From positions 992,001-1,056,000 of the forward strand of contig NZ_CP069791.1 in the NCBI RefSeq assembly GCF_016894265.1: 64,000 bases of DNA, given 5' to 3'. This DNA is from Corynebacterium tuberculostearicum. Its GTDB lineage: Bacteria; Actinomycetota; Actinomycetes; Mycobacteriales; Mycobacteriaceae. The notes under the pieces are model-generated. The model did not search any database. It worked only from the letters and a program-made list of their open reading frames with translations, and was not told where the DNA came from. Position 1 is the stretch's first letter. Each line of letters starts with the position of its first letter. Position numbers and translations under genes: made by a program. Shown here piece by piece: positions 10,687 to 22,065 of this stretch.

Positions 10687-10828
10687 TCTTTCTTAGTCGT
10701 GGACAATGGGAACCACGCCCATTGTAGGGGTTGCTCCTGAAAGTTCGACGGGCCCCAGGCTAAGGTTTGTGAAAATAAATACTCATCTGCCCGTAGGAAA
10801 TGAACAGCTTGGTCTAGACTGTGTGGCT

Positions 10829-11986
10829 ATGACAGAAGGCAGCACGCAGAACCTCGCTCAAGGCTTTACGTCCCGTTCCATCCACGGCGGCTATCACCCG
10901 GATCCGCACATGGGCTCTATCAACGTGCCCATCTATGCCTCGACCACGTTTGCGCAAGACGGTTTGGCGCAGCTGCGCGGCGGATTCGAATACGGCCGAG
11001 TGGCCAATCCGACCGTGCGCTCGCTGGAGCGCACTCTAGCGGCACTGGAAGGCGCGGAGTATGCACGCGTGTTTTCTTCCGGCATGGCCGCCGCCGATAC
11101 CTTGATCCGCATCCTGGTGCGCCCAGGGGACCACGTCATTTTAGGCAATGACGCCTACGGTGGTTCCTACCGCCTGCTCAATGATTTCACCGAGTGGGGC
11201 GTGGAGATGTCCATCGTGAACACCAGCGATACCGCAGCGGTTGCGGCCGCGGTTCAAGAAAATACCAAGCTCATCTGGCTAGAAACGCCCACTAATCCGG
11301 CGCTAAATATCACCGATATTGCCGCGGTGGCCAAGATTAAGGGCAACGCGCAGGTACTGGTGGACAATACTTTTGCTACGCCCTACCTGCAGAACCCGCT
11401 GGAACTCGGCGCCGACCACGTGCTGCACTCGACCACCAAGTACTTAGGCGGCCATTCCGATGTGCTCGGTGGCGCGGTAGTTACTAATGACGCCCACGTG
11501 GACGAGCGCCTGCTCTACTTCCAGGGCAATGTGGGCGCGGTGAGCTCGCCTTTCGACGCCTACTTAACCGCCCGCGGTATTAAGACGCTGTCCGTGCGCA
11601 TGGACCGCCACTGCGCGAATGCGCAGCGAGTAGCGGAATTCTTGCAGGCGCGACCCGAGGTCAAGCAGGTGCTCTACCCGGGGCTCAAGGGGCACCCGGG
11701 GCATGAATTGGCGGCACAACAGATGCGTGGCTTCGGCGGCATGATGTCCGTGCGCTTCCACAGCGCGGAGCATGCCAAGCAGATCTGCCTCAATACGCGG
11801 CTTATCTGCCTGGCAGAATCGCTGGGCGGGGTGGAATCGCTCATCGAGCACCCAAAGAATATGACGCACGTATCCGCGGAAGGGTCCGAGCTGGTGCCGC
11901 CGGAGGATCTGGTGCGTATCTCCATCGGTATCGAAGACATCGATGACCTGCTCGCGGACTTGGAGCAGGCCCTCGACGCTCTATAG
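10829..11986 (+). CDS. metB: Cystathionine gamma-synthase
   Basis: 385 residues (386 in C. glutamicum MetB). PLP-dependent Cys/Met-metabolism family: joins O-acetylhomoserine and cysteine to cystathionine in methionine synthesis. The PLP lysine is in [16 protein letters not shown] (~residue 203); YEYGRxxNPT-type segment [16 protein letters not shown] and [20 protein letters not shown] are family motifs. [11 protein letters not shown] near the C-terminus favours MetB over gamma-lyases, though not conclusively. The start is set at 10829: TAGACT (10815-10820) 8 nt upstream fits a leaderless promoter. A longer frame from 10706 has no supporting homology. It is convergent with the sulfur-linked FAD gene. 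Confidence 0.92.
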
Positions 11987-12021: not shown

Positions 12022-13890
12022 CTAGGAGCGCACCACGGCGAGGAGGGAACCGGCGGCCTTGTCGGTTTCCTGCAGCATGAGCGGGTCCGTGCCCGGCATG
12101 GGGGAAATGGTGGTGTCCGGCCACTGGGAATAGGTGGGGATGCCCACGATATGCAGGCGTGCATCCAACTCGCCGTCTGGGTGGACGGTGCGGCGGGTGG
12201 CCCCATCCGTTTCCGGCGAACCGGTGGGCTGGCCGTGATCGGGGAAGGGGCGCACGCGGCCGGAATCCACCAAGCAGCGCGTCATGGCATCGCCGGCGGT
12301 GCGGATGTCGGGGCGGTGCATAAAGGCGTCGACAAGCGTGGGCGCCGAAGCCGAGCGCGGGCCGGAGGTCAAGGTGAAGTGATCAGCCTCGATGGACACG
12401 GTGGGGTGATCGCCTAGGAAGTGGGCCAGGCCGGCATCGACAAGCGCGAGCAACTGGCGCACGCGGAAGAGCGGCGGGCCGGAGCCGATCATCTGGCCAA
12501 AGGACATGACCTGGCCGTAGCGGCCGGTGCGAGACTCGCGGGTGTAGCGGCCCTCTGCGCCGAGGATGGAGGCCGGCTTGCGCGATTGCGAAAGCGACCA
12601 CAGCGCGGCTTTGATGGGGGAGTCGTGGCCGGCGGCGGCCTCCCGAATATCGCCTTCCATGGATTGGGCAATGTGCTCGGTGAGCTCAGCGATGTCCCCG
12701 GTAAACCCGGCAATCTGGTACATGAGATCGTTCATGTCCCATGGTTCGGTGACCATGGGCGCAATGGCTGCGCCCAGCTCATCGGGGGCGGTGGCATCGA
12801 TGACCTCGAGGATTTCCGCGCGCGGGCGCAGGAGGGAATCCGGGCGCACGCGTTCCAAGGTGGTGATATAGGCCTCGTAGCTATCGCGCGCGATGGCGGG
12901 CCAAACCTGGGCGTCAAAGTCGATGTCCTGGGTGCCACTGAGCTCCGCAATGACATTCTTCAGGCGGCGGCGCGGCATGGTAGGCGGCAGCTCACCGTAT
13001 TCGGACTTGGGGTGGTAGGGGTAGCCGCGGCCGGAGGAAATGATGAAGTGGGGCTCCTGGCCGCAAGGCTCATAGCGCAGGCCGGAACGCGCGGAAGGAT
13101 CCTCTACGAATGTGCCGCCGCGCTCGATGGTGGTCAGCGCCAGGATGTCATAAAAGCCCATGCCCAGACCGCGCACCAGCACGTCCTCGCCGCCCGGAAT
13201 GGCGGCGTAGTCCTGCTCTACCGGGTTATTAGGGGCGATCCAGTTCAAACCGGAAGCGGCCAACTGCTTTTCTTGTTCGGTGTATTCCGGAATCATCCAG
13301 CCATAGGCCAGTACCGTGGCATCGGCGTGCACCTCGGAGCCATCAGCCAGGTGGAGGACGTCTTGGTGACCGTCCTCGGCGATGGTTTCCAACCGGCTGA
13401 AGTGATTCACGGTGGAAATGCTCTTGGGCAGGCGCGCAATGACCACGTCATAGACCCAGCGCAGGTACTCGCCATACAGTGCGCGCGAAGGGTTGGACTC
13501 GGGGCGGGTTGCCGCGAGCTCTTCGCGGTAGTCCTGGGCAATATGTGCGGCCGGTGGGTGCTGCTCGAAAAGCTCGCGCTTGGCGGCGGAGATATTCTCA
13601 CCATCGCCGCGCAGGAGCTGAATCCATTCGTACTGGATGGGTCCCTCGAGCACCGGGGCATCAACGGTGGAGCCGGGCTCGGTAAAGAGGGTGACCGCGC
13701 CGGCGCGAGTATTCATGCACAGAGTCTTGGTTTGATCCGTTTCCCAGATGCGGCCGGCGCCGTGTTGGGCATCATCGATGAGGTGGACGGTAATGGGGTC
13801 GCTGGAATCGTCCATGCGGGCGGAGAGGCGTTCCAAGATGGAAATGCCGCGTGGGCCCATGCCGACGATCGCGATTGCTGGAGTAGACAT
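12022..13890 (-). CDS. FAD/NAD(P)-binding protein (NAD_binding_9 / SidA-like oxidoreductase)
   Basis: 622 residues. IAIVGMGPRGISILERLSARM at the N-terminus is a dinucleotide-binding motif of the PF13454-type FAD/NAD(P)-binding proteins. DATVLAYGWM (~210) and EDVLVRGLGMGFYDILAL (~240) are further flavoprotein-like elements. Members of this family are poorly characterised and resemble flavin monooxygenases. The ATG at 13890 matches the family start; AGGAGGT lies almost against it, so translation may instead begin at an upstream in-frame ATG (13929). The gene diverges from an ABC importer across a promoter region with two McbR-type boxes, and is convergent with metB. Inferred role: redox step on an imported sulfur compound. 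Confidence 0.85.
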   Translation of the reverse strand: MSTPAIAIVGMGPRGISILERLSARMDDSSDPITVHLIDDAQHGAGRIWETDQTKTLCMNTRAGAVTLFTEPGSTVDAPVLEGPIQYEWIQLLRGDGENISAAKRELFEQHPPAAHIAQDYREELAATRPESNPSRALYGEYLRWVYDVVIARLPKSISTVNHFSRLETIAEDGHQDVLHLADGSEVHADATVLAYGWMIPEYTEQEKQLAASGLNWIAPNNPVEQDYAAIPGGEDVLVRGLGMGFYDILALTTIERGGTFVEDPSARSGLRYEPCGQEPHFIISSGRGYPYHPKSEYGELPPTMPRRRLKNVIAELSGTQDIDFDAQVWPAIARDSYEAYITTLERVRPDSLLRPRAEILEVIDATAPDELGAAIAPMVTEPWDMNDLMYQIAGFTGDIAELTEHIAQSMEGDIREAAAGHDSPIKAALWSLSQSRKPASILGAEGRYTRESRTGRYGQVMSFGQMIGSGPPLFRVRQLLALVDAGLAHFLGDHPTVSIEADHFTLTSGPRSASAPTLVDAFMHRPDIRTAGDAMTRCLVDSGRVRPFPDHGQPTGSPETDGATRRTVHPDGELDARLHIVGIPTYSQWPDTTISPMPGTDPLMLQETDKAAGSLLAVVRS

Positions 13891-13952
13891 ACCTCCTATC
13901 GTGCCACATTCAGGCCCTTTCAGGATCATCGGACCTGGCAGTTAGAATAAGA

Positions 13953-13968
13953 TAGACTAGTCGGTCTA
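13953..13968. promoter_or_regulatory. McbR-type operator (perfect TAGAC-N6-GTCTA)
   Basis: TAGAC (13953-13957), six bases, GTCTA (13964-13968) is an exact match to the inverted repeat bound by the TetR-type sulfur repressor McbR in C. glutamicum. It sits across the likely promoter of the minus-strand FAD gene (TATCTT/TATTCT -10 candidates nearby). Confidence 0.75.
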
Positions 13969-14008
13969 CGGTATTCTTGTCATGGCGCCGTTTTGGCAGG
14001 TAATGCGG

Positions 14009-14024
14009 TAGACTGTCCAGTCTT
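14009..14024. promoter_or_regulatory. McbR-type operator (one mismatch)
   Basis: TAGAC (14009-14013), six bases, GTCTT (14020-14024) differs from the McbR consensus at the last base only. It lies on the ABC-transporter side of the divergent region, about 70 bp before the lipoprotein start codon, so each direction has its own box. Confidence 0.65.
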
Positions 14025-14092
14025 GTAATTGGGGGTATGAGTGTGGTCTAATGGGCGAGTACTACTTAAGACTTAAAGGAACTCGAGCTTTT

Positions 14093-15748
14093 ATGAAGCA
14101 ACTTTCTCGGCTCCTGCGGCCCGTGGCCGCGGTCCTGGCCAGCGGCGCGCTAGCTCTCTCGCTTACCTCGTGCGCCTCTACTTCCCACGCCGCGGAAGAT
14201 GGCATGGTCACCTATGTCGAGCCCAATATGTTCAACAACCTCTATCCGCCCTCCGGCGGCTATTACCCCAACGGTGGTGTGCTCAATAACATCACGGACC
14301 GCCTGCTCTGGCAGGACCCGGATACCCTCGAGCTGCACCCGTGGATTGCGGAGGAGATGCCCAAGGCAAACAAGGACAATACTGAGTTCACCTTCAAGAT
14401 TCGCAAGGGCGTGACCTACTCCGATGGTTCCCGCCTGGATGCCGCGAACGTGAAGAAGAACTATGACCTTTATGCCCTGGGCGACGAAGATCGCATGCTC
14501 ACTCCATCGGAGCAGCTGCCCAATTATGAAAAATCCGAGGTCATCGACGACTACACGGTGAAGTTCTACTTCAGCGAGCCTTCCCCGGGCTTCCCGCAGT
14601 CCACCTCCGTAATGAACCAGGGCCTGCTTTCTAATGCCACCCTGGATTTGGATGACACCGGCTTCGCGCCGGGCAATGCCACCGCGATTTCCGGTTCTGG
14701 TCCCTTCGTCATTGAGGAAGAAGAGCTGGGCACCAAGCTGGTGCTCAAGAAGCGCGAGGACTATGACTGGGCGCCCCCGGCCCGAAAGGATCACCAAGGC
14801 CCGGCCGATATCGAGGGCATCAATATCGTGCTTGCGGCCGAAGACTCCGTGCGTGTGGGCTCGCTTGTAGCCGGCCAGTCCGATGTCGCGCGCCAGATCG
14901 AAGCCCCCGATGAGAAGCACCTGAAGGATCAAAACCTGCAGATTTTTGCCGCCCCCACTCGTGGCGTGAACAATAGCTTCCACTTCCACTTCCGCCATCC
15001 ACTCTTGGAAGACAAGCGCGTGCGCCAGGCCATCATCCATGCCATTGACCGCGATAACATCCTGGACACCCTCTTTTCTGATTCCTACCCCAAGGGAACA
15101 TCGATCCTGGCCAAGACGGCTATTGGCTATAAGGATCAGTCCGCGAACTATGCCTTCGATCCGGAAGAATCCAAGCGCCTGCTCGATGAGGCCGGCTGGC
15201 GCCCAGGTGAAGATGGCATTCGCGAAAAGGACGGCAAGCGCCTGTCCGTGACCTTCAATGAAGCCGTCCCACAGCCGCGCTCTAAAGAGATGTTCACCAA
15301 GGCTCAAGAGATGCTCAAGAACGTCGGTATCGAGGCCAACCTCAACCCGGGTGACCGCTCTGCGCAGCAAAAGGCCATGAAGGACCAAGACACCGTGCAG
15401 GTACGCCACACCATGACCGGCCGTGCCAATGTGGACACCTTGGCCACGTGGCTGGATGGCACCGGGCGCAATTCTTTCCTCAACTACGACGAGAAGACCG
15501 ATAGCTTTGGTGATGAGAAACTGCAGAAACTGGTGGAGGATTACTTCGACCTCAGCAGTGAAAAGGATCGCCTAGCCATGACCGGCCGCATGCAGGACTA
15601 TCTGTCCGAACAGGCCTATATCCTGCCCATGTTTGAAGAGCCGCAGGTCTATGGCTTCCAGCCCTATATCGAGGGCTTTAGCACCGAGGCCATCGGCCGC
15701 CCATCGTTCTATGCGGTAGACATCAACCCCGCAGAAGGGGAGGACTAA
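14093..15748 (+). CDS. ABC transporter substrate-binding lipoprotein (SBP_bac_5, KPN_01854-like)
   Basis: 551 residues. The signal peptide (residues 1-24, LLRPVAAVLASGALALSL) ends in lipobox LTSC, so the protein is lipid-anchored outside the membrane. The body is a cluster C binding protein of the oligopeptide/nickel type: ITDRLLWQDPDTLELHPWIA, TFKIRKGVTYSDGSRLDAANV and RHPLLEDKRVRQAIIHAIDRD are family hallmarks. AAAGGA precedes the ATG by 12 nt. Gene order (binding protein, two permeases, dual ATPase, AhpD-like protein) fits an uncharacterised importer class that TIGR named after KPN_01854. The ligand is unknown; McbR-type boxes upstream suggest a sulfur source. Confidence 0.9.
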   Translation: MKQLSRLLRPVAAVLASGALALSLTSCASTSHAAEDGMVTYVEPNMFNNLYPPSGGYYPNGGVLNNITDRLLWQDPDTLELHPWIAEEMPKANKDNTEFTFKIRKGVTYSDGSRLDAANVKKNYDLYALGDEDRMLTPSEQLPNYEKSEVIDDYTVKFYFSEPSPGFPQSTSVMNQGLLSNATLDLDDTGFAPGNATAISGSGPFVIEEEELGTKLVLKKREDYDWAPPARKDHQGPADIEGINIVLAAEDSVRVGSLVAGQSDVARQIEAPDEKHLKDQNLQIFAAPTRGVNNSFHFHFRHPLLEDKRVRQAIIHAIDRDNILDTLFSDSYPKGTSILAKTAIGYKDQSANYAFDPEESKRLLDEAGWRPGEDGIREKDGKRLSVTFNEAVPQPRSKEMFTKAQEMLKNVGIEANLNPGDRSAQQKAMKDQDTVQVRHTMTGRANVDTLATWLDGTGRNSFLNYDEKTDSFGDEKLQKLVEDYFDLSSEKDRLAMTGRMQDYLSEQAYILPMFEEPQVYGFQPYIEGFSTEAIGRPSFYAVDINPAEGED

Positions 15749-15751
15749 ACC

Positions 15752-16753
15752 ATGAGCCTGAAAACTATTGCCCTGCGCATCGGCCAAGCCGTGCTCGTTA
15801 TCTGGGCAACTTTTACCCTTTCTTTCATCCTCTTGGCGGCACTGCCTGGTGACGCCGTCGCGACCCGCTATGACAACCCCAACTTGGGGCTCAACGCCGA
15901 GCAGCTGGCCGCCATCCGCGAGGTTTATGGTGCCGATGAGCCGATCTTAAGCCGCTACTTCAGCGCGCTCGGCGGATTCCTCACCGGTGATTTTGGCTTT
16001 TCCGTCGCCACCGGTACCGCCGTATCGGAGATGCTGGCAGATGCCCTTCCCTCCACGCTGGCGCTGGCGGTCTTCGCCTTCCTTGTAGGCGTGGTCCTGG
16101 CCTTCCTGGTGGCTATTGTCTCCACCTTTGGCCCATTTTCTTGGCTGCGCAGCTTTTTCCGCAGCCTGCCTTCCGTGATGGTTTCCCTGCCCACCTTCTG
16201 GATCGGCATCATTTTGATCCAGATTTTCTCCTTTGGCTTGGGCTGGGTGCCGGTCATCGGCGCAAGCGATGCCCAAAGCCTCATCCTGCCGGTAATTACC
16301 CTGGCCATCTTCGTGGCCGCACCGCTGGCGCAGGTGCTGCTGCGCTCCATCGATGAGGTCATGGATATGTCCTTCGTGCAGGTTGTGCGTGCCAAGGGTG
16401 CTAGCGGTGCCTGGTTGTTGTGGCGCAACGTCCTGCGCAATGCGCTGCTGCCGGCGCTGACCATGGCCGGCCTTACCTTTGGTGAGCTCGTCGGCGGCTC
16501 CGTGGTGACGGAGGCGGTCTTCGCCCGCCACGGCATCGGTGCGCTGACCGTAGATGCGGTGGCTAACCGCGATACCTCGGTGCTGCTGGCCATTGTGGTG
16601 CTGGCCGCCGCCGTCTTTGTCCTTATCAACCTGATTGTGGACCTGCTCTACCCAGTGCTTGACGTGCGCCTGCGCGAGCGCGAGCACGAGACTGCATCTA
16701 GCTCCGCCACCGCCGATACCACCGCAACGAACGAGAAGAAGGTCCAAGCATGA
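15752..16753 (+). CDS. ABC transporter permease, DppB/OppB type
   Basis: 333 residues with six predicted membrane segments and a BPD_transp_1 core. The N-terminal helix IGQAVLVIWATFTLSFILLAALPGD is typical of OppB/DppB proteins, and the EAA-like loop is QVVRAKGASGAWLLWRNVLRNALLP (~215-240), which contacts the ATPase. The charged C-terminal tail (~310-333) is short and unconserved. It starts 3 nt after the binding-protein stop, and its last bases overlap the next permease start (ATGA), so it is translationally coupled. Confidence 0.93.
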   Translation: MSLKTIALRIGQAVLVIWATFTLSFILLAALPGDAVATRYDNPNLGLNAEQLAAIREVYGADEPILSRYFSALGGFLTGDFGFSVATGTAVSEMLADALPSTLALAVFAFLVGVVLAFLVAIVSTFGPFSWLRSFFRSLPSVMVSLPTFWIGIILIQIFSFGLGWVPVIGASDAQSLILPVITLAIFVAAPLAQVLLRSIDEVMDMSFVQVVRAKGASGAWLLWRNVLRNALLPALTMAGLTFGELVGGSVVTEAVFARHGIGALTVDAVANRDTSVLLAIVVLAAAVFVLINLIVDLLYPVLDVRLREREHETASSSATADTTATNEKKVQA

Positions 16754-17562
16754 AGCTTAAATCCACACAGCTGAAGCTCACCCCGGGCACCATCATCTCG
16801 CTGATTATGCTGGGGCTGGCGGTGCTCTGCGCGCTGTTCCCCCAACTATTTACCTCCCAGGACCCTAATCAGGGCGGGGACACCACGGCGCTGCTGCAAC
16901 CTAGCTTCCAACACTGGTTCGGCACCGATGCCGTCGGCCGCGATCTCTACACCCGCGTGGTCTACGGCGCGCGCCAATCCCTACTCGGCGCGCTGCTGGC
17001 CGTCCTTTTCGGCCTCATCGTCGGCACCATCTTGGGTATCATCGCCGGCGTGCGCCGCGGCTGGGTCGATGCCGTCATCATGCGCATCGTGGACGTGCTG
17101 CTGTCCATCCCCGGCCTGCTGCTCTCCCTGTCCGTCATCATCGTGCTGGGCCACGGCATCTTCAATGCCGCCATCGCCGTAGGTATCACCTCCGTGGCCA
17201 CCTTTGCGCGCCTTGCACGCTCCCAGGTGCTTAGCGTTGCCGGCTCCGATTTCGTCGAGGCCGCCTATGGCTCCGGCGGTTCTTCCTTCCAGGTGCTCGT
17301 GCGCCATATTCTTCCCAATTCACTCACCGCGGTCTTCGCCGTAGCAGCCCTGCAATTTGGCCTGGCCATTTTGCAGCTAGCCACCCTAGGCTTCCTGGGC
17401 TATGGCGCACCGCCCCCAACTCCGGAATGGGGTCTTCTCATCTCTGAATCGCGCGATTACATCGCCACGGCCGGCTGGTTGACCATCGCCCCGGGCATTG
17501 TGATCGTCGCCGTGGTCCTCGCGGCCAACCACCTCAGCCAGACACTGCGAAAGGCGGCCTAA
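16750..17562 (+). CDS. ABC transporter permease, DppC/OppC type
   Basis: 270 residues. HWFGTDAVGRDLYTRVVYGARQSLLGAL is the conserved N-terminal signature of OppC/DppC permeases, followed by five or six membrane segments. The EAA loop FVEAAYGSGGSSFQVLVRHILPNSL lies at ~175-198, and GAPPPTPEWGLLISE near the C-terminus is also family-typical. It pairs with the preceding permease to form the importer channel. It overlaps its upstream neighbour by 4 nt, and its stop codon overlaps the ATPase start by 1 nt. Confidence 0.93.
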   Translation: MKLKSTQLKLTPGTIISLIMLGLAVLCALFPQLFTSQDPNQGGDTTALLQPSFQHWFGTDAVGRDLYTRVVYGARQSLLGALLAVLFGLIVGTILGIIAGVRRGWVDAVIMRIVDVLLSIPGLLLSLSVIIVLGHGIFNAAIAVGITSVATFARLARSQVLSVAGSDFVEAAYGSGGSSFQVLVRHILPNSLTAVFAVAALQFGLAILQLATLGFLGYGAPPPTPEWGLLISESRDYIATAGWLTIAPGIVIVAVVLAANHLSQTLRKAA

Positions 17563-19184
17563 TGTCCCTGCTTAGCATTAGTGATCTATCCATTACCTAC
17601 CGCACCGCTCACGGTGAGCTAGAAGCGGTAAGCGGCATTGAGCTCGAGGTAAACCCTGGCGAGATGACCGCCATCGTTGGCGAGTCCGGTTCCGGCAAGT
17701 CCACCTCCGCCATGGCCGCCATTGGCCTGCTGCCAGACAATGCTTCGATCGTTTCCGGCACCATTACTTTCGACGGCCGGGACGTGACCCAATATTCTCA
17801 AAAGCAATGGCGGGAGCTGCGCGGTCGCCGCATTGGTTTGATTCCGCAGGATCCCAATAACTCGCTTAACCCGCTCAAGACCATCGGTGCCTCGGTGGAG
17901 GAAGGCATGGCCATCCACGGGCAGGGCAATAAGGCCTCCCGGAAGAAGCGTGCACTGGAGCTTTTGGAGCGCGTGGGCATTGATGATCCGCAGCGCCGCT
18001 ATCACCAGTACCCGCATGAGCTATCCGGCGGCATGAAGCAGCGCGTGCTCATTGCCGCGGCCGTGGCATTGGAGCCGGAGCTCATCATCGCCGATGAGCC
18101 CACCTCCGCGCTCGATGTCACCGTGCAGAAGATCATCCTGGACCTCCTGGATGAGATGCGCGAAGAGCTCACCATGGGCATCCTTTTCATTACCCATGAT
18201 CTGGCCGTGGCGGGCGACCGTGCCAATAACATCGTGGTGATGGAAAAGGGTACCGTCCGCGAGTCGGGCGTTGCTGCCCGCGTCCTCACCGACCCCCAGC
18301 ACGCCTACTCCAAGCGCCTGCTTGCCGACGCCCCCTCGCTCACCGCCCCCACTTCCTCCCAGGCCGCATCTCCTGTGCGGGCCGCCGCGCCCGCACAACG
18401 CGAAACCTTGCTCGAGGTGGAGGGGCTGAGCCAACGCTTCGGGGATTTCACCGCGGTGGAAGACATCAACTTTTCCGTGGCCCGCGGAACCACCCATGCA
18501 TTGGTGGGGGAGTCTGGCTCCGGTAAGACCACCACCGGCCGCGCCATTTCCTTGTTGAGCACGCCCACCTCCGGCAGCATTCGCTTGGGCGGGGAAGACA
18601 TTAGCTCTGCCCGTGGCAAGCGCCGTCGTGAGCTGCGCCGTTCTATCCAGATGGTTTACCAAAATCCGTTTGGCTCGCTGGATCCGCGCTTGAGCATCGG
18701 CGATACCATCGCCGAACCGGTGCGCAATTTCACCGGCGCTTCCAAACGTGATGCGCGTGCCAAAGCACGCGACTTTCTTGATTTGGTGGCCTTGGATTCT
18801 TCCATGGCTTCCCGGCGCCCCCGCGAGCTCTCCGGTGGTCAACGCCAGCGCGTGGCCATCGCCCGCGCCATGATCATCGAACCCGATCTCGTGGTGCTCG
18901 ATGAGGCCGTGTCCGCGCTCGACGTCACCGTGCAAGCGCAGATCCTGCGGCTGCTCGACGAGCTGCAGCGCGAGCTGGAGCTTACCTATATCTTCATCTC
19001 CCACGATCTGGCGGTAGTTAATCAAATTTCCGATACCGTTTCCGTGCTCTCCCACGGCACGCAAGTGGAATCCGGACCTACCGCGCAGGTCTTTGCGCAT
19101 CCGGAAACCGAGTACACGCGCCAACTAATTGACGCCATCCCCGGCTCCCGCTATCGTGCCGGAGACCTAAACTTGGGGCTATAA
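17562..19184 (+). CDS. ABC transporter dual ATP-binding protein (DppD-DppF fusion)
   Basis: 540 residues containing two complete oligopeptide-type ATPase cassettes. First half: Walker A GESGSGKST (~44), signature ELSGGMKQRVLIA (~155), Walker B LIIADEPTSALD. Second half: Walker A GESGSGKTT (~320), signature ELSGGQRQRVAIA (~430), Walker B LVVLDEAVSALDVTVQ. An Ala/Pro/Ser-rich linker joins them at ~255-282. One protein therefore supplies both nucleotide-binding sites for the two permeases. Last transport gene of the operon; an AhpD-like gene follows 29 nt later. Confidence 0.94.
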   Translation: MSLLSISDLSITYRTAHGELEAVSGIELEVNPGEMTAIVGESGSGKSTSAMAAIGLLPDNASIVSGTITFDGRDVTQYSQKQWRELRGRRIGLIPQDPNNSLNPLKTIGASVEEGMAIHGQGNKASRKKRALELLERVGIDDPQRRYHQYPHELSGGMKQRVLIAAAVALEPELIIADEPTSALDVTVQKIILDLLDEMREELTMGILFITHDLAVAGDRANNIVVMEKGTVRESGVAARVLTDPQHAYSKRLLADAPSLTAPTSSQAASPVRAAAPAQRETLLEVEGLSQRFGDFTAVEDINFSVARGTTHALVGESGSGKTTTGRAISLLSTPTSGSIRLGGEDISSARGKRRRELRRSIQMVYQNPFGSLDPRLSIGDTIAEPVRNFTGASKRDARAKARDFLDLVALDSSMASRRPRELSGGQRQRVAIARAMIIEPDLVVLDEAVSALDVTVQAQILRLLDELQRELELTYIFISHDLAVVNQISDTVSVLSHGTQVESGPTAQVFAHPETEYTRQLIDAIPGSRYRAGDLNLGL

Positions 19185-19213
19185 CCGCGCCCCAGAAAGG
19201 TTGGACTGAAAAT

Positions 19214-20428
19214 ATGACTGACATTATTAATGAGCTCTCCCACGCCAGCGCCGAGGTGCAACAGCTGCGCCGTGCGCGCCATGATGCGCAGGACAATGCG
19301 CAACTGAGCTTTAGCGCTTTGCTCGAGCCTGCAGAACCAGGCGAGTTCTCCTATACGGAGCGCTATGCCGTTGCGGCTTTTACCGCTGCAATCTACCAAG
19401 CGAGCGAGGCTGCGGATTTCTACTTCGACTTGCTGGAAGATGAGGCCGACGAGGACCTTGTTGCCGCCGTGCGCGCCGCGAGCCAGCGCGGCGTGTCCAC
19501 CGGCCCGTATCACCAGGGTGATTTCCTTATCTTCGGCGATACCTCAGCGGAAGCCGCGCTGGGCACGCGCCTAGCTGCGGCCTTTGATTGGGCGCACCTT
19601 CTGGCCTTCCACCCCAAGGATGCCTCCCCGCAGGCCATCGGGCACCTCGATGCCGCAGGATGGTCCGCCACGGATATCGTCAGCCTGTCCCAGCTGGTGG
19701 CATTTTTGGCCTTCCAGCTGCGCGTGGTCCACGGCCTGCGTGTACTTTCTGGCGAGGATCCCGCATCCCACCCCGCAGCCGAGCGCGCCGCCGGCGTGGC
19801 CGATCCGGGTTGGGAGGTTACTGCGACTACGTTGCAGCCCGATACCGTGCTGCCTGATCGCTTTGCCAACCACTCCCTGGGCTGGAAGCCCTGGGTAGAG
19901 GCGCTGGCGAAGGAGGATTTCACCGCGGTGCATACCGATGCCCTCATTAAGCCAGAGCGCATCGATTCCGAGTACTTCCGCTTGCTTGCCCGCGACCCTG
20001 CGGCCTTGAAGGCGCGCACGCTGACTGACCTGGACATCTTCTATAACACCGAGGGCGGCCTCTCCCGTGCGGACCGCGAGCTCGCCGCTACTGTGGCTTC
20101 GCGCTACAACGGCTGCGAGTACTGTGCCTCCGTGCACCAGGCGCGGTGCGTCCAGGAAGGCGGCGACCGTGAAATCGTAGACCGCCTCTTGGACGAGGGC
20201 ATCGACACCGACCTTGGCTCAAAGGAATGGGACCTTATCCGTCGCGCCGCAGTGGCGCTGACGGAAACCCCGTTTGCCTTCGATGCGGCCCTATGCGCAG
20301 ACCTGCGTGCGGCCGGATTCGATGATCAGTCCATCCTGGACCTGATTTATGCTTCCTCCTTCTTCAACTGGGCTAATCGTTTGATGCTCACCCTGGGCCA
20401 GCCGGACGTGCCTAAGCGCTTCCGTTAA
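19214..20428 (+). CDS. Two-domain alkylhydroperoxidase/CMD-family protein (Avi_7170 + Avi_7169-like)
   Basis: 404 residues made of two AhpD-fold halves. Residues ~1-205 resemble the CMD domain family typified by Avi_7170 and contain no Cys. Residues ~215-404 carry the AhpD redox motif in ASRYNGCEYCASVHQARC, i.e. Cys-x2-Cys-x3-His, and end with the family motif FFNWANRLMLTLG. AhpD-like proteins reduce peroxides or disulfides or act as carboxymuconolactone-type enzymes; the substrate here is unknown. In related loci two separate genes encode these halves, usually with a luciferase-like FMN monooxygenase, which is absent from this window. AAAGG precedes the ATG. Belongs to the McbR-box transport operon. 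Confidence 0.87.
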   Translation: MTDIINELSHASAEVQQLRRARHDAQDNAQLSFSALLEPAEPGEFSYTERYAVAAFTAAIYQASEAADFYFDLLEDEADEDLVAAVRAASQRGVSTGPYHQGDFLIFGDTSAEAALGTRLAAAFDWAHLLAFHPKDASPQAIGHLDAAGWSATDIVSLSQLVAFLAFQLRVVHGLRVLSGEDPASHPAAERAAGVADPGWEVTATTLQPDTVLPDRFANHSLGWKPWVEALAKEDFTAVHTDALIKPERIDSEYFRLLARDPAALKARTLTDLDIFYNTEGGLSRADRELAATVASRYNGCEYCASVHQARCVQEGGDREIVDRLLDEGIDTDLGSKEWDLIRRAAVALTETPFAFDAALCADLRAAGFDDQSILDLIYASSFFNWANRLMLTLGQPDVPKRFR

Positions 20429-20493: not shown

Positions 20494-21210
20494 ATGACTG
20501 ATACAAAGAACGCCACCGCACCAGCACTCTCGGAGAGCGAAGCCCCGCAGAAGGTCGCCGTCGTCACCGGCGCTACCGGCGGCATGGGCCGCGAAATCAT
20601 CGCTGACCTGGCCGGTGATTACCACGTGTATGCACTGGGCCGTAGCGCGGCGGAACTGCCCGAATCGGACTCCATTACGCCGGTGGCCATCGACCTCGTC
20701 GCCGGCCTCGATGAAGGTATGAAGCTGCCGGAGCTAGACCGTGTGGACGTGCTCGTCCACGCGGCCGCACGGGCTACCAAGTACTCGGTGGAGGAAGCCA
20801 CGCCGGAAAATTGGCGCGCGCACATGGACCTCAACGTGCACGCCCCTGCTGAGCTCACCCGCGCCTTGCTGCCGCAGCTGCGCAAAGCGGAAGGCACCGT
20901 GGTCTTTATCAACTCTGGCGCTGGACGCCACAGCTACGGCGATAACGTCATCTACGCGGCGACCAAGCACGCGTTGTATGCACTCGCCGATGGACTGCGC
21001 ATCTCTGAGCCGGGTATCCGCGTATCCACGGTGGCTCCGGGGCCTACCGATACCCCGATGCTGAAGGGTCTGCAGGATTATGATCCCTCCCAGGTTATTG
21101 CCCCGGCTGAGGTGGCTCGTGCCATTCGTACCGTGGTAGAGGCAGGCCCCACCACCCAGCTGACGGAAATCCAGGTCAGGCCGCGAATCGAGCTACATCT
21201 GCGCAAGTAG
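20494..21210 (+). CDS. SDR family oxidoreductase
   Basis: 238 residues. VAVVTGATGGMGREIIADL is the SDR cofactor-binding motif (~residues 18-36); VLVHAAARA replaces the usual NNAG with HAA, and the catalytic residues are seen as INSGAG (Ser) and YAATKHAL (Tyr-x3-Lys, ~150). VAPGPTDTPML is the typical C-terminal SDR loop. Substrate unknown. TATGAT (20480-20485) lies 8 nt before the ATG, so a leaderless mRNA with its own promoter is likely and co-transcription with the preceding AhpD-like gene is not needed. Confidence 0.9.
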   Translation: MTDTKNATAPALSESEAPQKVAVVTGATGGMGREIIADLAGDYHVYALGRSAAELPESDSITPVAIDLVAGLDEGMKLPELDRVDVLVHAAARATKYSVEEATPENWRAHMDLNVHAPAELTRALLPQLRKAEGTVVFINSGAGRHSYGDNVIYAATKHALYALADGLRISEPGIRVSTVAPGPTDTPMLKGLQDYDPSQVIAPAEVARAIRTVVEAGPTTQLTEIQVRPRIELHLRK

Positions 21211-21224
21211 GAACGCAAGTGGTG

Positions 21225-21274
21225 GTAATGGACATCACACATTAATGGGGTTGGTCTCCAGGGGTGTCCATTAC
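21225..21274. promoter_or_regulatory. Inverted repeat, likely GntR operator
   Basis: GTAATGGACATC (21225-21236) and GGTGTCCATTAC (21263-21274) match at 11 of 12 positions as an inverted repeat with a 26-nt spacer, ending 11 nt before the regulator's GTG start. This arrangement suggests autoregulation by the downstream GntR protein, possibly by looping or by two half-sites. Confidence 0.5.
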
Positions 21275-21285
21275 ACTCGGGGGCT

Positions 21286-22065
21286 GTGACTTCCCAAAGC
21301 CGAAAACGGCCAGCCTATCTCCGTATCTCGGATGCGCTACGCGACAAGATCGAACGCAATGAATTAGAACCCGGTCAGAAATTTCCTACCGAACGCGAAT
21401 TGGTCCGGGAATTCCATGTTGCGCGCATGACCGTGCGCCATGCTTTAGACATTTTGGAAGTAGAAGGCCTCATTGACCGCCGCCGCGGGCGCAGTGGTGG
21501 CACCTATGTGCGCACGGTTCCCCCTACACTGAGCCTTACCAATGAGGACAATATTGTCACCCAGCTGCGCGAGCGCGGGCACGACACCGCCGTGCGCGTG
21601 GTCTCCGTTAACAAGGCCCACGTGCCCAAGCATGTAGCAGCGGTACTGGGCGTTAGCGATTCCACCTTTGCGTGGGATATCAAGCGCCTCTATACCGTCG
21701 ATGGCAAGCCCGTCATCCTTTCGCGCTATACCATCCCGGTAGATATGGCTCCCGATCTCAATCAGCACGATCTGCGCGAGCCCATTATGGAAATCCTGGC
21801 TGGCTACAACCTCAAGCCCGTCTTTAAGCGCGAGAGCATGCGTGCCGCTACCGCTCGCACCGAAGAACAGAAACTTTTGCACGTGAGCCGATCGCACCCG
21901 CTGCTGCGGTTCGTGCGGCTGCTAAAGACTAAATCGGGCGCGGTCTTTGCCTATATTGAAGAGTCGCTGCGCTCTGATATCGCCAACGTCGAGGTGATCT
22001 TGGGTGAGGATCCCGCGCCGCAACCCTTACCGGGTCAGGGCAACGGCGCGGGAAAGCCGGCTTAG
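21286..22065 (+). CDS. GntR-family regulator with UTRA effector domain (HutC/DasR subfamily)
   Basis: 259 residues. The N-terminal winged helix reads LRDKIERNELEPGQKFPTERELVREF and MTVRHALDILEVEGLIDRRRGRSGGTYV (residues ~10-75), the usual GntR DNA-binding domain. The UTRA ligand domain spans ~95-240, with RLYTVDGKPVILSRYTIPVDM. UTRA ligands are often phosphosugars or histidine-pathway intermediates, but the ligand here is unknown. GTG start. The gene stands alone: an SDR gene lies upstream with a 75-bp gap holding an inverted repeat, and the gene's 3' end overlaps the convergent pepN by 4 bp. Confidence 0.92.
   Translation: MTSQSRKRPAYLRISDALRDKIERNELEPGQKFPTERELVREFHVARMTVRHALDILEVEGLIDRRRGRSGGTYVRTVPPTLSLTNEDNIVTQLRERGHDTAVRVVSVNKAHVPKHVAAVLGVSDSTFAWDIKRLYTVDGKPVILSRYTIPVDMAPDLNQHDLREPIMEILAGYNLKPVFKRESMRAATARTEEQKLLHVSRSHPLLRFVRLLKTKSGAVFAYIEESLRSDIANVEVILGEDPAPQPLPGQGNGAGKPA

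Follow-up and report, generated by a model that had tools for sequence, protein, structure and literature searches.

The stretch of DNA analyzed in this study (hereafter the window) comprises 64,000 nt of Corynebacterium tuberculostearicum GCF_016894265.1 (NZ_CP069791.1, positions 992,001 to 1,056,000), whose genome is a single contig of 2.43 Mb. It contains a locus in which the gene for a putative monooxygenase dependent on flavin adenine dinucleotide (FAD) and NAD(P) stands divergent to an importer operon, with boxes of the type assigned to the sulfur repressor McbR between them. Families of the window proteins were assigned using NCBIfam and Pfam. The FAD gene (12022 to 13890, minus strand) encodes a protein of 622 amino acid residues of the FzmM/CreE fold family. 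On the plus strand, the operon encodes a substrate-binding lipoprotein (SBP; 14093 to 15748) of SBP family 5, which matches TIGR04028 (KPN_01854 family) with 849 bits (cut-off, 468.5); two ATP-binding cassette (ABC) permeases (15752 to 16753 and 16750 to 17562, both PF00528); a fused double ABC ATPase of the dipeptide/nickel type by NCBIfam/Pfam (17562 to 19184); and a two-domain protein (19214 to 20428) with CMD (TIGR04029, 241 bits) and AhpD-like (TIGR04030, 310 bits) domains, both above the cut-offs. The CxxCxxxH motif of the latter, which defines AhpD-like thiol oxidoreductases, is present in all 80 CMD/AhpD sequences compared (79 from relatives and that of the window). Beyond the FAD gene lies metB for cystathionine γ-synthase (10829 to 11986, plus strand; NF005871, 617.6 bits, above the cut-off). 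An earlier note on this DNA had described an FAD gene divergent from a complete ABC importer and a CMD/AhpD gene, with metB as the next gene, and the assigned families agree with this layout.

A pattern search confirmed the positions that the earlier note gave for two McbR-type boxes, both of which lie between the FAD gene and the importer operon. The box on the FAD side (13953 to 13968, TAGACTAGTCGGTCTA) is a perfect TAGAC-N6-GTCTA, and that on the importer side (14009 to 14024, TAGACTGTCCAGTCTT), 56 nt from the first, has one mismatch. No further box with at most one mismatch was found elsewhere in the 64-kb window. The claim that such boxes occur nowhere else in the window therefore holds up to one mismatch and fails at two, because metB has its own degenerate box directly 5′ of its likely start (10801 to 10816, two mismatches, TGAACAGCTTGGTCTA). 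This box is conserved with at most two mismatches in 48 of the 53 relatives' loci that contain metB, and metB is likely to belong to the same regulon as the importer locus. A scan of 13850 to 14150 for sigma-70 promoters gave no match.

One box per 64 kb is little proof by itself. Genome-wide, boxes with at most one mismatch were not enriched (53 forward sites versus 62 for a reversed control), and we therefore rejected genome-wide counts as evidence. We next counted boxes in 600-nt regions around the start of the SBP frame in 93 genomes, namely, all those among 201 sampled genomes of the genus that contain an SBP above the cut-off; the 92 loci besides the window were fetched (L041 to L132), together with one below the cut-off (L133) and five with paralogous SBPs (L134 to L138). 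A box with at most one mismatch was found near the SBP start in 73 of the 93 genomes, and a perfect box in 49. In the same genomes, 59 permuted half-sites gave a mean of 0.85 regions, and none of the other 1023 of all 1024 half-sites reached 73, the runner-up being GCGCC with 44 regions. Half-site gaps other than 6 nt gave 0 to 2 regions, and elsewhere in these loci the density was 0.014 boxes per 900 nt. Because the genomes are related, the counts cannot be treated as independent; the FAD proteins of these loci diverge to approximately 50% identity to that of the window. This conservation across relatives settles that the boxes exceed chance. The commonest spacings between a box with at most one mismatch and another with at most two, where a pair of two good boxes was counted twice, were 23 nt (27 counts) and 56 nt, as in the window (18 counts).

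The earlier note had made its sulfur reading depend on the presence of an McbR homologue. Using C. glutamicum McbR as the query, we found one in the genome of the window (G000:C1:622363) with 74% identity over query residues 13 to 213. This genome contains four perfect boxes, located at the present locus, before metK, 5′ of a methionine-synthase-like gene (below-cut-off match to NF003317, 66 bits), and at 2298693, where the one neighboring protein tested had no NCBIfam match. Of the 51 other places with a box, we inspected the neighboring genes at 25; boxes with one mismatch precede cysK, genes for a ROK-type regulator and a TsuA/YeeE-like transporter (both below the cut-offs of their models), and PAPS-reductase-family genes. 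The last box, at 716129 (L197), lies right before two such genes (716474 and 717139), as expected for sulfate assimilation genes. Many of the one-mismatch boxes fall within long open frames and look like chance matches.

The McbR regulon was reportedly described by Rey et al. in 2005. A genome in our collection, which we take to be that of C. glutamicum ATCC 13032, has the same importer operon and divergent FAD gene with two one-mismatch boxes, and a C. glutamicum FAD protein is among the named homologues (P0059). According to the available passages of one article, cg2678-74 of C. glutamicum are among the McbR-regulon genes transcribed less in a cysR mutant (PMC2580772), and cg2674, cg2675, cg2677, cg2678, and metB are marked as McbR in the accessible part of a table in another (PMC2807442). 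By annotation, cg2678-74 comprise the same importer and CMD genes. Because this orthologous operon has already been published as part of the McbR regulon, the sulfur link itself is not new. In the passages available, however, these genes appear as regulon members with generic annotation, and neither the FAD family nor the genus-wide pattern was found there. The conserved boxes, the McbR homologue, and the C. glutamicum orthologue thus support the claim of McbR control made in the earlier note. That note mentioned neither the published regulation in C. glutamicum nor the identity of the FAD protein.

The sources label homologues of the FAD protein only as "FAD/NAD(P)-binding protein," "exopolyphosphatase," or similar. 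Judged from sequence comparison and a model, the window protein is a full-length member of the fold family of the aspartate N-hydroxylase FzmM, with three-domain homology to FzmM/CreE over the entire length, and the word "oxidatively" in the earlier note was thus well aimed. It shares with the L-aspartate N-hydroxylases FzmM/CreE (PDB 8cp2 and 8cp5; PMC10404684) the common fold, the FAD and NADPH domains, and Arg412, as well as the cofactor-binding or catalytic residues Arg13, Trp51, and Asn62, which are kept in all 87 sequences aligned (86 relatives and the window; 3 of the relatives' 89 open frames were left out because the motif was absent or the length excessive). In contrast to this intact class B monooxygenase core, the aspartate pocket has been rebuilt; Arg276, Asn413, Arg416, and Arg577 of the aspartate chamber are replaced mostly by Ala/Met, Lys, Ser/Ala, and Met, respectively, although the stretch 266 to 276 is less certain because pairwise alignment positions these residues differently. 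All four residues are kept in the homologue V2, in two Streptomyces homologues, and in one from Parageobacillus; a Staphylococcus homologue keeps three and an Arthrobacter homologue none. We therefore rejected "aspartate N-hydroxylase" as a name for the gene. Adenylosuccinate-lyase/pcaB-type genes adjoin the two Streptomyces homologues. Unlike FzmM/CreE, the window enzyme has no nitrosuccinate-lyase-type gene alongside among the nine window proteins scanned, and its gene stands at boxes of the sulfur-repressor type. A search with the FAD protein gave matches in 149 of 242 Corynebacterium genomes (E ≤ 1e−30). Among the matches listed in the open-access literature, we found no published link between FzmM/CreE-type enzymes and Corynebacterium and no joint mention of "N-hydroxylating monooxygenase" with "sulfur source" or "C-S bond." The fold-family assignment gives a gene with vague labels a concrete biochemical family.

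In 90 of the 92 relatives, the FAD and SBP genes are divergently arranged, the exceptions being L095 (contig end) and L132, and a CMD gene was found in 81 of these loci. Three loci (L050, L055, and L060) show the importer operon flanked by two FAD copies, with no CMD gene found. In L133, the SBP and ATPase genes are broken into separate frames, as in a decaying cassette.

Outside Corynebacterium, we examined seven cassettes (L040, L196, and five drawn from the 117 plasmid records that contain the SBP), and all seven contain a luciferase-like monooxygenase (LLM) and lack the FAD protein. The proteobacterial TIGR04028-TIGR04030 cassette (Allorhizobium ampelinum S4, Pantoea, Erwinia, and Sinorhizobium) has the same SBP family, permeases, fused ATPase, and CMD and AhpD domains. 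It differs in carrying an LLM that uses flavin mononucleotide (KPN_01858 type) where the window has the FAD enzyme, and in some cases CMD and AhpD are separate genes, whereas they are fused in the window. The LLM of L040 had no match in L041 to L133, and we thus rejected the idea of an LLM enzyme elsewhere in the Corynebacterium locus; the genome of the window has three Bac_luciferase-family matches outside the window. Since no source found defines the LLM as obligatory, we take the Corynebacterium form as a variant of the TIGR04028-TIGR04030 cassette. Given their reciprocal distribution, the two enzymes probably fill the same role in different cassettes, each oxygenating the one compound that the importer brings in. 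Names from this cassette led to a single article in the open-access literature, in whose accessible text KPN_01858 appears solely among the enzymes of an iron-limitation proteome. As for neighbors, the A. ampelinum S4 cassette adjoins tauA-like, dioxygenase, and LLM genes, and a Pantoea plasmid cassette adjoins a GNAT-LLM-amidohydrolase-MsnO8 cluster; the Erwinia, Sinorhizobium, and Rhizobium cassettes have no clear sulfur neighbors in their records, the last of which is sparsely annotated. The sulfur role put forward in the earlier note is therefore backed by the McbR regulon and by organosulfur-type neighbors in two of the five annotated proteobacterial cassettes, but not clearly by the other three.

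We also hand-picked 38 further FAD loci of the genus, mostly without the cassette, from the list of FAD proteins, and added L196. A monophyletic clade of FAD paralogues (eight sequences, support 100/100) adjoins a gene of the OsmC family. Nine loci are of this type (L173, L174, L175, L178 to L182, and L184), including L182, which is absent from the tree, and OsmC was found in eight of them, the stretch of L178 ending early. An NMT1_2-type ABC importer is present in four (L175, L179, L181, and L182) and an MFS protein in two (L173 and L184), with neither of these within the stretches of L174, L178, and L180; Pfam was run on L181 and L173 for OsmC and transporter and on L184 for MFS only. A box with at most one mismatch was found in seven of the nine OsmC-type loci, in seven of eight further cassettes, and in 3 of 20 FAD loci without a recognized importer, a class in which unrelated importers would be missed because similarity to the query set was the criterion for recognizing an importer. 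These counts exclude L193, which lies at a contig end. The seven OsmC proteins checked keep one Cys and have Ser in WSPVVNT, at the position where a second Cys would be expected. In L161, one of the 20 loci, the FAD gene is divergent to a SulP sulfate-permease-family gene followed by a ferritin gene.

Taken together, we moderately favor the reading that the locus is an McbR-controlled module for acquiring organosulfur, comprising uptake of a sulfur-containing amino compound, oxygenation by the FAD enzyme, and C-S cleavage. We infer McbR binding and induction in this species as well as McbR control of the FAD gene; under sulfur shortage, McbR would leave both predicted operator boxes, and both divergent transcripts would rise. 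The cargo of the TIGR04028 importer would be an amino compound that contains sulfur; S-substituted cysteines, small peptide conjugates, and aminosulfonates are examples. The FAD enzyme would oxygenate this cargo with NADPH and O2, most likely at the amino nitrogen and next most likely at sulfur. As the product would be labile, its C-S bond would break and release a thiol or sulfite for CysK/MetB-type assimilation, and the CMD/AhpD protein, through its thiol site, may reduce or quench an oxidized intermediate. A more specific and tentative proposal, which we regard as rather unlikely as it stands, is that corynebacteria import a sulfur amino acid and gain its sulfur by converting it to an oxime or nitro compound through oxidation at the amino nitrogen, so that the β-sulfur becomes a leaving group and the C-S bond breaks; the first substrates to consider would be S-substituted cysteines and cysteate, which is the sulfonate counterpart of aspartate. 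If true, this would be a new desulfurization chemistry from a repurposed N-hydroxylase family of antibiotic pathways. It would add a new way of using organosulfur that matters for skin corynebacteria (sulfur sources and odor chemistry of the skin) and for strains producing methionine and cysteine. Several McbR-box modules would then each pair the flavoenzyme with an importer and with either AhpD or OsmC as the thiol protein.

The B. subtilis yxe operon likewise includes an importer, and its YxeK is of the LLM type. In the available text on this pathway for S-(2-succino)cysteine (2SC), a monooxygenase releases sulfur from the cysteine adduct, and the cleavage step can be served by different enzymes that substitute for each other in the same cluster (PMC9706529); the pathway differs from the window in its sequence of acetylation, YxeK, and deacetylation, and YxeK is unrelated to the FAD enzyme. 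The combination of a sulfur-regulated importer with an FzmM-type flavin enzyme was not found in our searches of the open-access literature. The cargo of cg2678-74 now becomes a directly testable question in C. glutamicum.

The replaced pocket residues would also suit the same module with an FAD enzyme that oxygenates sulfur or the adjacent carbon, as flavin-containing monooxygenases and LLMs do, rather than nitrogen, the likeness to FzmM being one of fold only. In other phyla, an LLM takes the place of the FAD enzyme, and some LLMs cleave C-S bonds, among them MsuD according to the accessible part of one article (PMC8234197) as well as the YxeK discussed above; we consider this alternative a real possibility, if still an unlikely one. 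It is quite improbable that the importer serves a metallophore, an opine, or an ordinary peptide and is merely co-regulated, with the FAD enzyme otherwise employed (e.g., in nitro-compound or redox metabolism); the nearest solved SBPs by sequence are of the NikA and peptide types, and in a close relative (G006) the FAD gene stays beside metB without importer or box, but most of the 93 genomes have box, importer, and FAD gene together, and loci in which no importer was recognized largely lack the box. The locus could instead serve to detoxify and repair damaged thiols (succinated or alkylated cysteine, hydroperoxides), the recovered sulfur being a side product. This reading would fit the AhpD-like and OsmC partners and the overlap of salvage and repair seen in the available account of 2SC breakdown (PMC9706529), but is very improbable given boxes of the sulfur-repressor type and a dedicated importer, which points to an external substrate.

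As for the gene starts, the SBP frame probably begins at the lipoprotein-type ATG at 14093 rather than at 14051, and the FAD gene at 13890 rather than at the upstream ATG at 13929, which would lengthen the protein by 13 residues, as judged from the sequence and from several near relatives, whose FAD proteins have 622 to 623 residues. The open frame of metB starts at 10706, with the ATG at 10829 as the likely start. Genes for SDR and GntR/UTRA proteins lie 3′ of the importer operon (20494 to 22065); they are loosely linked to the cassette, since SDR is found in only 44 and GntR in only 30 of the 92 relatives' loci. Remoter TIGR04028-like SBP paralogues (L135, L136, and L138) have distant FAD-family genes and weak LLM matches nearby. 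The SBP of the window is 97 to 99% identical to its counterparts in C. tuberculostearicum and skin relatives.

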